A DNA stretch of 51,386 bases, taken from assembly GCF_001280255.1 (NCBI RefSeq), contig NZ_LHCI01000106.1:26547-77932 (forward strand), written 5' to 3'. Below the pieces are notes generated by a model. It worked only from the letters and a program-made list of their open reading frames with translations. It was not told where the DNA came from and did no database searches. A program made the translations under genes and the position numbers. The DNA is from Thermus aquaticus. GTDB taxonomy: Bacteria; Deinococcota; Deinococci; Deinococcales; Thermaceae. Each line of letters begins with the position of its first letter. The stretch's first letter is position 1. This document shows positions 7,978 to 27,208 of the stretch, piece by piece.

Positions 7978-8069
7978 TGGCGGAGGGGGCGGGATTCGAA
8001 CCCGCGAGACCCCTTGCGGGGCCTACCGGTTTTCGAGACCGGCCCGTTCAACCGCTCCGGCACCCCTCC
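7978..8069 (-). tRNA. tRNA-Ser (anticodon CGA)
   Basis: Class II tRNA, acceptor GGAGGGG (8069-8063) paired with CCCCTCC, G discriminator at 7981 and encoded CCA (7978-7980). The anticodon loop CTCGAAA gives CGA. The long variable arm is AGGCCCCGCAAGGGGTCT. Its first 22 nt (8069-8048) are also the last 22 nt of the tilS-tadA coding sequence, whose TGA stop is formed by tRNA positions 20-22 in the D-loop. Confidence 0.95.
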
Positions 8070-9577
8070 CTGAGCCGGGCGAAGAAGTCCCTTAAAAGCT
8101 TAGCACACTCCCCTTCCCGAAGGCCACCCCGCATCCTCCCCCCCTGGCCGTAGCGGGTGAGGGCCCCCTCCTTCAGGTTCTCCACCCCGTAGACCACCTC
8201 CACCCCCGCCTCCATAAGGGCGTGGTGGCACATGCGGCAGGGCTCCAGGGTCACGTAAAGCCGCCCTCCCCTGGCCCTTTTCCCCAGCTTCTGCAAGAGG
8301 AGCATCTCGGCGTGGGCGGTGGGGTCTTCCATGGCCTCCACCCGGTTCCGCTCCCCGTGGACCTCCCCCTCCAGGACCAGGACCGCTCCCACCGGCACCT
8401 CCCCCTCGGCGAAGGCCTTCTTGGCCTCCTCGAGGGCCAGGCCCATGTAGCCCTCCTCCGCCGAAGGGGGAAAGAGGCCCAAGACCTCCTCCACCCGCCC
8501 CTCCGCCCCCCGCACGGGCCAGAGGGCCCTGAGCTCCTTGGGCACGCCCTTTTCCGCCAAAAAGGCCGCCAGGCGTTTCCGGCCAGCGGGCCTTTCCAGG
8601 TGGTCCCCGGGAAGGGGCCTGCGGAAGCCCTTGGGGAGGGGGATCTGGGGACTGGGGGGGATGAGGAACAGGGTCCCCAGATACCGCCGGGCCAGATACC
8701 CCCCGGGAAGCGTCCCCGCCCTGCCCTTTAGGGCCTCCTCCAGAAGGGCGATGAGCCTGGCCTCGGGGCGGAGGTCCAGGGCCTCCAAAACCCGCCTCAG
8801 GGCCCGCCTCCGCACGGCCTCCGGGGCCCTCAGGAGGGGCAAGGCCCGGAAGGCGGGCACGAAGAAGCGGGGGTCAGGGAGGAGGCGGACCTCCGCCACG
8901 CCTTCCAGAAAGGCCTCCTCCTCCTCCCGGGCCTGGGCGAAGCGGGCCAAAGCCTCCCTGGCCCGGGGAAAGCGCTCCAGGATCAGGGGCAAGACCGAGA
9001 GCCTCAGGTAGTTGCGGTCCAGGGAAAGGTCCCGGTTCGTGGGGTCCTCCCGCCAGGCCTCCCCCAGGCCCAGGAGGTAGGCCCGGAGCGCCTCCCGGGT
9101 GAAGGGGAGGAGGGGGCGGACCACCATCCCCTCCTTCTCCCGGATACCGAGGCCCCTAGCCGTGCCCTGGAGGAGCTTGAGGAGGACGGTCTCCGCCTGG
9201 TCGTCCAGGGTGTGGGCGGTGAGGATGGCCTTGGCCCCCACCTCCTTGGCCACCCGGTGGAGGAAGGCGTAGCGCACCTCCCGGGCCAGGGCCTCGAGGT
9301 TCTCCCCCCTCTCCTTGGCGATTCGCCCCACCTCCACCCGCTCCCCGTAGAAGGGAAAGCCAAGCCTTTGGGCCAGGTCCCGCACGAAGAGGAGGTCTTC
9401 GCCGCTATCCGGGCGCAGGGCGTGGTCCAGGTGGGCCACCACCGCCCGCCTCCCCGCCCGCCGCACCAGGTGGGCCAGGGCCACCGAGTCCCCGCCCCCG
9501 GAGACCGCCAGGACCAGGGGGTCCTGGGGGGCCAGGCGGGCCAGGCGCCCGCGAAAGGCCTCCTCAAGGACCGACAA
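8048..9577 (-). CDS. tilS: TilS-TadA fusion: tRNA-Ile lysidine synthase plus tRNA adenosine deaminase
   Basis: 509 residues. The N-terminal half is TilS, which adds lysidine at C34 of tRNA-Ile2 so that it reads AUA; its PP-loop is SGGGDS at 26-31. The middle resembles the TilS substrate-binding region. From about residue 378 comes a complete deaminase domain of the TadA type (A34 to inosine in tRNA-Arg): HAE at 422-424 and PCRMC at 446-450 bind zinc, with E424 as proton shuttle. It overlaps the upstream CopZ-like gene by 14 nt. At the 3' end it overlaps tRNA-Ser by 22 nt on the same strand, so its stop codon belongs to the tRNA. Confidence 0.92.
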   Translation of the reverse strand: MSVLEEAFRGRLARLAPQDPLVLAVSGGGDSVALAHLVRRAGRRAVVAHLDHALRPDSGEDLLFVRDLAQRLGFPFYGERVEVGRIAKERGENLEALAREVRYAFLHRVAKEVGAKAILTAHTLDDQAETVLLKLLQGTARGLGIREKEGMVVRPLLPFTREALRAYLLGLGEAWREDPTNRDLSLDRNYLRLSVLPLILERFPRAREALARFAQAREEEEAFLEGVAEVRLLPDPRFFVPAFRALPLLRAPEAVRRRALRRVLEALDLRPEARLIALLEEALKGRAGTLPGGYLARRYLGTLFLIPPSPQIPLPKGFRRPLPGDHLERPAGRKRLAAFLAEKGVPKELRALWPVRGAEGRVEEVLGLFPPSAEEGYMGLALEEAKKAFAEGEVPVGAVLVLEGEVHGERNRVEAMEDPTAHAEMLLLQKLGKRARGGRLYVTLEPCRMCHHALMEAGVEVVYGVENLKEGALTRYGQGGRMRGGLREGECAKLLRDFFARLREGCRSG

Positions 9578-25714: not shown

Positions 25715-25782
25715 GCCCCCATTCTCCCACGCCCCCGCCAAAAGGGCGTGAAAACTTGGGGCCAAGCCCGTATGGTGGAAGG

Positions 25783-27114
25783 GTGCGGCCCCTCCTTCTG
25801 GGCCTCTTGCTGGCCCTCACCCTCCCTCCCTTCCCCTTTGGGCCCCTGGCCCCCCTGGTCCTGGCCTTCCTCCTGAGGGGGGGTTTCCGGGAAGGCTTCC
25901 TGATGGGCCTTGGCTTCTTTAGCCTTCACCTCCTCTGGCTTCCCCAGAGCTTCGCCCAAAACTTCGGCCCCTGGGGCGCCGTGCCTTTTTTGCCCCTGGT
26001 CCTCGTCAAGGCCCTCAGTTTCGGCCTCCTCTTCGCCCTCACCCCCACGCCCCTCTCCCGGGTGGGAGGCTGGGTCCTCCTGGAGTGGCTTTCGGAACAG
26101 GGGGACCTGGCCTTCCCCTGGGGCCTTTTGGGCTACGCCCTCCTCGAGGCCCCCGGCCGGCTCCTGGCCGCCTGGGGCGGGGTCTACCTCCTCTCCCTCC
26201 TGGTCCTCCTCTTCGCCTGGGGCTTTTCGGCAGGGCGGTGGTCCCTCCTCCTCCCCTGGGCCCTCCTCTGGCTCCTTCCCCTGCCCGAGGCCAGGCCCGA
26301 GGGGATGGCCCTCCTGGTCCAGGGCAACATCAACCCCCTGCGCAAGTTCCAAGGGGAGCTGGACGAGGCGGTCTACCTGCGCCTCACGGAAGAGGGGCTG
26401 AAGGCCCACCCCGAGGCCCAACTGGTGGTCTGGCCGGAGACCGCCGTCTGGCGCATCCCCGAGGGGGTGGACGGGGTCCTAGAGGGCCGCCCCCTGCTCA
26501 CCGGGTTCAACCTCTTCGGTCCCAACCGGGCGGTCCTTTACCAGGAGGGCCGGATCCTGGCCCACTACGACAAGACCCGGCTGGTGCCCTTTGGGGAGCG
26601 CTTCCCCTTCCGGGAGGCCCTGGGCGGGGTCTACGCTTTCTTCTTCCGGGCCATGGGCCTGGGGGAGGTCCTGGACCGCACCCCGGGGAAGGACCTGAGG
26701 CCCTTGGGGCCCTATGGGGTCATGATCTGCTACGAGTCCGTCTTTCCGGGCGTGGCCCGGGGCCTCGCCAGGTCCGGGGCGGAGGTCCTGATCCTCCTCA
26801 CCAACGACGCCTGGTACGGCCCCTCCTACGGGGGAAGGCAGCACTTCGCCCTGGGCCGCCTCCGGGCGGTGGAGACGGGGCGCTGGCTCCTTAGGGCCGG
26901 GAACGACGGCATCACCGCCAGCGTAGACCCTTACGGGAGGGTGGTGGCCGCCATCCCCCCGCACCGGGAGGGCTTCCTCCTGGCCCCCTACGCCCTCCTC
27001 TCCGGCGAGACCCCTTATGTGCGCCTGGGGGACTGGGCCGTGGGGGTGGCGTTGACCTTGCTCCTCCTGGGGCTTATCCTTAGGGTGCGTCTGCCGGGGT
27101 GGCGGAATCGGTAG
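25783..27114 (+). CDS. lnt: Apolipoprotein N-acyltransferase
   Basis: Adds the third acyl chain to lipoproteins in the inner membrane. 443 residues: several N-terminal membrane segments, then a nitrilase-type domain with the catalytic triad visible as Glu in VVWPETAVWRIP, Lys in YDKTRLVPFGERFP and Cys in GVMICYESVFPG, and one C-terminal membrane segment. The start GTG 25783 is 6 nt after TATGGT (25771-25776). The stop TAG (27112-27114) is inside tRNA-Leu on the same strand, an overlap of 22 nt. The tRNA promoter lies inside the last codons. Confidence 0.92.
   Translation: MRPLLLGLLLALTLPPFPFGPLAPLVLAFLLRGGFREGFLMGLGFFSLHLLWLPQSFAQNFGPWGAVPFLPLVLVKALSFGLLFALTPTPLSRVGGWVLLEWLSEQGDLAFPWGLLGYALLEAPGRLLAAWGGVYLLSLLVLLFAWGFSAGRWSLLLPWALLWLLPLPEARPEGMALLVQGNINPLRKFQGELDEAVYLRLTEEGLKAHPEAQLVVWPETAVWRIPEGVDGVLEGRPLLTGFNLFGPNRAVLYQEGRILAHYDKTRLVPFGERFPFREALGGVYAFFFRAMGLGEVLDRTPGKDLRPLGPYGVMICYESVFPGVARGLARSGAEVLILLTNDAWYGPSYGGRQHFALGRLRAVETGRWLLRAGNDGITASVDPYGRVVAAIPPHREGFLLAPYALLSGETPYVRLGDWAVGVALTLLLLGLILRVRLPGWRNR
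27052..27080 (+). promoter_or_regulatory. tRNA-Leu promoter inside lnt
   Basis: TTGACC (27052-27057), 17-nt spacer, TATCCT (27075-27080). This predicts initiation about 5-6 nt before the tRNA (27093), within the lnt coding sequence. Confidence 0.65.
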
Positions 27115-27179
27115 ACGCGGCAGACTCAAAATCTGCTGCCCGCAAGGGCGTGCGGGTTCGAGTCCCGCCCCCGGCACCA
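27093..27179 (+). tRNA. tRNA-Leu (anticodon CAA)
   Basis: Class II tRNA with acceptor GCCGGGG (27093-27099), anticodon loop CTCAAAA giving CAA, long variable arm TGCCCGCAAGGGCGT, A73 and encoded CCA (27177-27179). Its first 22 nt overlap the end of lnt; tRNA positions 20-22 (TAG in the D-loop) are the lnt stop codon. Confidence 0.96.
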
Positions 27180-27182
27180 GAA

Positions 27183-27208
27183 GGCCCCCTCCGGGGGGCC
27201 TAGGTTTT
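27183..27208 (+). terminator. Rho-independent terminator after tRNA-Leu
   Basis: Hairpin GGCCCCC-TCC-GGGGGGCC (27183-27200), then TAGG and a short T-run. It ends the tRNA-Leu transcript and abuts the stop codon of the convergent methyltransferase gene. Confidence 0.7.

Follow-up and report, generated by a model that had tools for sequence, protein, structure and literature searches.

Two protein genes of Thermus end inside class II tRNA genes: probable capture of D-loop stop codons

In the 51,386-nt stretch of Thermus aquaticus DNA analysed here (the window), the gene for Lnt, the enzyme that acylates lipoproteins, reaches its stop codon inside the tRNA-Leu(CAA) gene that follows it on the same strand. 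A tilS-tadA fusion gene elsewhere in the window ends in the same manner inside tRNA-Ser(CGA). Both tRNAs are of class II and both overlaps measure 22 nt, a coincidence that the preliminary description of this DNA took as a sign either of a common route (loss of the original stop and capture of one offered by the D-loop) or of selected coupling. The question raised by the locus is how such ends arose and whether their equal length has any meaning. We consider it very probable that the old lnt stop and the spacer behind it were deleted, that the frame captured the D-loop TAG, and that the arrangement has persisted without needing to be of benefit.

The two overlaps

The product of lnt scored 218.8 bits against the TIGR00546 equivalog model, above the curated cut-off of 132.9, and matched both the LNT_N and the CN_hydrolase domains. 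Its frame is open from a TTG at 25756, and the downstream GTG (Table 1) is the likelier start; a -10-like TATGGT just before that GTG (25771-25776) suggests a leaderless lnt mRNA. No in-frame stop precedes the TAG in the tRNA, and within the overlap the codons read CCG GGG TGG CGG AAT CGG TAG. The tRNA-Leu has the long variable arm and the Leu anticodon of its class by two methods, which confirms the 22-nt overlap with a class II tRNA noticed earlier. The codon score marks the lnt frame as the coding one right up to the tRNA.

The claim of a second overlap of exactly 22 nt holds as well, provided that the 5' end of tRNA-Ser(CGA) is placed at 8069, as by Infernal, and not at 8070, as by ARAGORN; the tilS-tadA stop is a TGA at 8050-8048 on the minus strand. 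By established tRNA numbering, the Leu TAG occupies positions 20, 20a and 20b and the Ser TGA positions 20a, 20b and 21. The linear offset is thus equal in the two cases and the structural positions are not. TilS and TadA, which act on tRNA-Ile2 and tRNA-Arg and not on tRNA-Ser, form one fused protein in the Thermaceae searched. Both overlapped tRNAs are C34 isoacceptors; their codons could also be read through wobble by the UAA and UGA tRNAs, and low demand may make an overlap tolerable. A second tRNA-Ser(CGA) reported by ARAGORN in one neighbourhood (L096) was absent from the Rfam list and was dropped.

Table 1. Positions of the overlapping genes and of associated signals in the window
Feature	Position	Strand	Basis or remark
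lnt, apolipoprotein N-acyltransferase CDS	25783..27114	+	TIGR00546, PF20154 (LNT_N), PF00795 (CN_hydrolase)
Putative -35 box TTGACC of tRNA-Leu promoter, inside lnt	27052..27057	+	promoter scan
Putative -10 box TATCCT of tRNA-Leu promoter, inside lnt	27075..27080	+	promoter scan
tRNA-Leu(CAA), class II, CCA encoded	27093..27179	+	ARAGORN and Rfam
lnt/tRNA-Leu overlap, 22 nt, tRNA bases 1-22	27093..27114	+	sequence; kept in 26 Thermus genomes and G076
lnt stop TAG in D-loop of tRNA-Leu, tRNA bases 20-22	27112..27114	+	frame reading
Predicted intrinsic terminator, stem-loop then T-run	27182..27201	+	
tRNA-Ser(CGA), class II	7978..8069	-	ARAGORN and Rfam/Infernal
tilS-tadA fusion CDS	8048..9577	-	last 22 nt (8069-8048) are tRNA-Ser bases 1-22
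Probable extended -10 TGTGCTAAGCT of tRNA-Ser promoter, inside tilS-tadA	8097..8107	-	

Conservation and number of overlaps

Among 27 Thermus genomes, one per species, lnt is present in 26, the remaining genome being 65% complete, and in all 26 it ends at the same TAG of tRNA-Leu(CAA). The overlap is shared by G076, a genome of the sister genus g3. The tilS-tadA overlap of 22 nt was found in 25 Thermus genomes and in G076. The exception, seen in one assembly (G015), has tilS-tadA in a different frame that stops at a TAG at tRNA-Ser bases 45-47 and gives an overlap of 47 nt. In this basal Thermus (L052) the longer read into the tRNA crosses the anticodon arm and ends DFFRARRGAGAVERAGLENR. G016, counted among the 25, keeps the usual end; further upstream its gene is broken over two frames (L053/L055, matches 7-372 and 308-509), as a pseudogene or through an assembly indel.

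In the other Thermaceae genera (g2, g4 and g29) both gene pairs are mostly adjacent yet separate. The gap between lnt and tRNA-Leu measures 86-99 nt in g29, 31 nt in g4 and 29-37 nt in g2, with 12 nt in two g2 genomes, and that between tilS and tRNA-Ser measures 21-22 nt in g4 and about 37-167 nt in g2. Within g29, tilS of G090 overlaps its tRNA by 22 nt, whereas its congener G089 is gapped by 52 nt. The overlaps are therefore conserved across one clade that has relatives without them, and these gapped neighbours date both to the stem of Thermus and g3, where a tree of Lnt and TilS also places them, together with a separate tilS gain in G090. Parsimony suggests that the change went from gapped to overlapping; in the f4 outgroup, which is without the pair, no tRNA follows lnt. 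Spacing tends to shrink with genome size, from 3.5-3.7 Mb in g29 to 2.0-2.4 Mb in Thermus, a trend judged by eye and without a statistic, which fits compaction.

Two Lnt paralogs occur in several g2 and g4 genomes (G073, G084, G091, G092 and G096), and the copy that adjoins tRNA-Leu is in some of them not the one that matches Thermus Lnt best. Apparent overlaps suggested by tblastn at L113, L211, L212 and L184 were rejected, since the alignments cross a real stop and the genes are in truth separated by about 37 and 35 nt.

A scan of 233 tRNA genes in five genomes of the Thermus clade (G000, G007, G026, G015 and G076), using a codon score that can miss small or unusual genes, gave exactly two CDS/tRNA overlaps in each, those of lnt and tilS-tadA. 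The same scan of the tRNA neighbourhoods of one Meiothermus-like genome (46 tRNA genes) gave none. No class I tRNA was overlapped in the scanned genomes, the nearest coding sequences ending 9-11 nt away. Further open frames ran into tRNA-Ser GGA (22 nt), Pro CGG (23 nt), Asp GTC (23 nt), Glu TTC (15 nt) and Arg CCT (10 nt), and codon scoring identified all five as noncoding frames of GC-rich DNA. The preliminary description would have seen its reading refuted if no further cases existed and close relatives lacked both overlaps. Only the first half of this applies: there are no others in these five genomes, but every close relative has the two.

Promoters and stops supplied by tRNA genes

Upstream of each tRNA, the coding sequence seems to carry a promoter. 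The pair TTGACC-17-TATCCT (27052-27080) lies 12 nt before tRNA-Leu, where shuffled sequences gave an expectation of 0. On these boxes lnt uses codons that are rare in the gene body: TTG, CTT and AGG make up 8%, 13% and 12%, respectively, of the codons for their amino acids. The TTG at the -35 box is nonetheless invariant in 26 of 26 genomes and the -10 codons CTT ATC CTT AGG are near-invariant, whereas the lnt codons between the boxes vary. The silent-site conservation of the seven lnt codons before the tRNA was equalled by 0 of 373 windows in the body of the gene. It appears from these signals that tRNA-Leu has kept its own promoter within lnt and could be made independently of it, and the predicted terminator would end both tRNA-Leu and any read-through transcript from lnt.

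For tRNA-Ser, the tilS-tadA codons TGT GCT AAG at TGTGCTAAGCT are invariant in 24 of 24 genomes, TGT and GCT being rare, and only 3 of 312 windows were as conserved. A matching GTTGTGCTAAAGT is found in the spacers between tilS and tRNA-Ser of related genera; the -35 of this putative promoter is weak. Literature on Thermus tRNA promoters and on secG-leuU yielded nothing usable.

Such signals also serve other genes as stops. Of about 45 coding sequences that end no more than 60 nt from a tRNA without overlapping it, about 22 have their stop inside the -35 motif (the TGA of TTGAC, or TAGAC), compared with 14 of 508 other ends; the automatic count was 28 of 56, from which six cases of D-loop TAGAC or unrelated sequence were subtracted by hand, and as loci repeat across genomes the independent number is about seven. 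Stops in TTGACA (TGA) or TAGACA (TAG) stand upstream of tRNA-Ala(GGC), Ala(CGC), Gln, Lys, Ser(TGA), Met and Ile in the Thermaceae neighbourhoods L066-L098, L114-L201 and L230-L289. Other genes take their stop from the tRNA -10, as in TATAAT and TAAACT of G076, and the lnt stop of Meiothermus-like genomes comes immediately after the tRNA -10 or shares bases with it (TATAGTTTAG). A coding sequence that ends inside the tRNA itself is the extreme form of this habit of the Thermaceae, whose genes beside tRNAs often borrow stops from the -35, the -10 or the D-loop.

The length of 22 nt finds its explanation in the tRNAs themselves. When every tRNA of four genomes was read in three frames (40 of class II and 146 of class I), the shortest possible overlap was 21-23 nt in 35 of the 40 class II genes, and in 30 of the 40 the sole stop of the frame starting at base 2 ended at base 22. 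A gene entering tRNA-Leu(CAA) in either of the other two frames would read on for 111 or 161 nt, which leaves a single frame for a short, harmless tail. Since the conserved tRNA sequence sets the available stops, an equal geometry is what one would expect; the common length of 22 nt calls for no special cause and is no argument for coupling. The idea that class II tRNAs are special donors of stops did not survive the comparison of Ser and Leu tRNAs with the others: class I tRNAs offer stops sooner, the shortest overlap being 10 nt in 106 of the 146 and 15 nt in 23, and T8A9G10 would end the base-2 frame at 10 nt in those 106.

Origin of the overlaps

We propose that lnt and tRNA-Leu(CAA) were once adjacent on the same strand, as they are in most Thermaceae, and that the common ancestor of Thermus and g3 lost about 50 nt in net terms, among them the former stop of lnt and the leader of the tRNA. 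The frame would then have entered the tRNA and ended at its first in-frame stop, the D-loop TAG. Lnt would thereby have gained only some six residues (PGWRNR), at a C-terminus that is variable in other genera. The tilS-tadA overlap would have come about in this way twice, in the same stem and again in a g29 genome, and genome shrinkage is the likely cause of the loss of stops and spacers. Two observations support this route: the genes lie apart in the other genera, and stops are also borrowed from tRNA promoter boxes. For lnt there was probably little way back, because promoter and tRNA hold the DNA fixed and a single substitution would turn almost no codon near the junction into a stop, nearly all being at least two changes away. 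The argument is weaker for tilS, whose end does have one-step codons (AAG, TTA, AAG). Whether or not the overlap is selected, RNase P processing of a read-through transcript would cost the lnt message its stop codon, and tmRNA would have to come to its rescue. Against the capture of stops it can be said that there are two loci in one clade, that their class II bias, which would arise by chance with a probability of about (40/186)^2 = 0.05 and was noticed after the fact, is left unexplained, and that retention in every Thermus genome could also mean a benefit.

Such a benefit would be a selected coupling, in which tRNA maturation and protein synthesis are alternatives on one transcript and regulate each other. 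Any transcript from lnt to the terminator holds the whole tRNA, and the lnt stop lies 3' of the RNase P site. A cut at tRNA base 1 would sever the stop from a read-through lnt mRNA and leave it nonstop, to be rescued by tmRNA, while termination in the D-loop would block folding of the tRNA. In its favour, every Thermus genome that has lnt retains the overlap, there is a tmRNA gene for the rescue, and the same idea has been proposed for selB/selC (PMC8124441). We nevertheless regard coupling as unlikely. In neither pair is the function of the protein related to that of the tRNA, and a promoter for each tRNA seems to lie within the coding sequence; other genera do without the overlap, whose length is set by the tRNA sequence and changed in G015. 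An either/or switch, by which a read-through transcript would yield either Lnt or tRNA and the nonstop mRNA would be cleared by trans-translation, is equally doubtful; if it existed, tRNA processing would tune membrane lipoprotein maturation in all Thermus. Of the two explanations first offered for the shared geometry, then, the stop-capture route is supported and coupling has gained no positive evidence, the inference from geometry itself being weak. In G000, the genome of the window, two tmRNA matches exceed the Rfam cut-off: one of 148 bits at C106:1848763-1849135, and one of 135 bits at C107:25536-25822, a different contig that is perhaps a plasmid or phage.

Had the old stop been lost through a point mutation or a frameshift, without deletion of the spacer, lnt would also end at the D-loop TAG if the frame fitted. 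This is less probable still, because the spacer itself is gone: the distance between a shared G-L motif and the first base of the tRNA is 23 nt in Thermus, against about 73 nt in the Meiothermus-like L106. Automatic annotation often dislikes CDS/tRNA overlaps, but an artefact, with lnt ending at another place and the frame across the overlap left unused, is hardly credible, given the lack of any upstream in-frame stop, the frame kept in 26 genomes and g3, the codon score in its favour and the TIGR00546 match.

Comparison with known systems

In these two cases, both clear and spread through the genus, a bacterial protein gene ends inside an ordinary tRNA and the prior step is visible in relatives. 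The arrangement is rare, and its cause is probably simple. They matter for annotation, since pipelines that forbid CDS/tRNA overlap would trim or lose such genes, and they offer a natural test of the fate of an mRNA whose stop codon RNase P removes. No description of them was found in the open-access literature searched.

In compact bacterial genomes, overlaps between two coding sequences are familiar, and there too a conserved signal of the neighbour supplies the stop codon; here the donor is a tRNA or its promoter, and no translational coupling of two coding sequences is involved. Overlaps of coding sequences with tRNAs also occur in animal mitochondria, as discussed in PMC8124441. The likeness lies in a compact genome, in bases shared by mRNA and tRNA and in a transcript for which processing and translation compete; Thermus differs in that it is a bacterium living freely and that a promoter within the coding sequence seems to serve its tRNA.

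The closest published precedent is selB/selC, in which the tRNA-Sec gene is nested in or overlaps the 3' end of selB (Mukai 2021, PMC8124441). In Dyella and Luteibacter the selB stop lies inside the tRNA, at nt 46-48, and close relatives stop before it; relatives that lost the overlap have been described, and the proposed consequence of a nonstop mRNA is a hypothesis there too (PMC8124441). In both systems a bacterial coding sequence runs on the same strand into the following tRNA and takes its C-terminal residues from the tRNA sequence. In selB/selC, however, protein and tRNA act together in one pathway, as neither the lnt nor the tilS-tadA pair does, and selC is often nested whole, whereas the Thermus cases join ordinary elongator tRNAs to unrelated proteins over 22 nt only, with a putative promoter embedded in the coding sequence.
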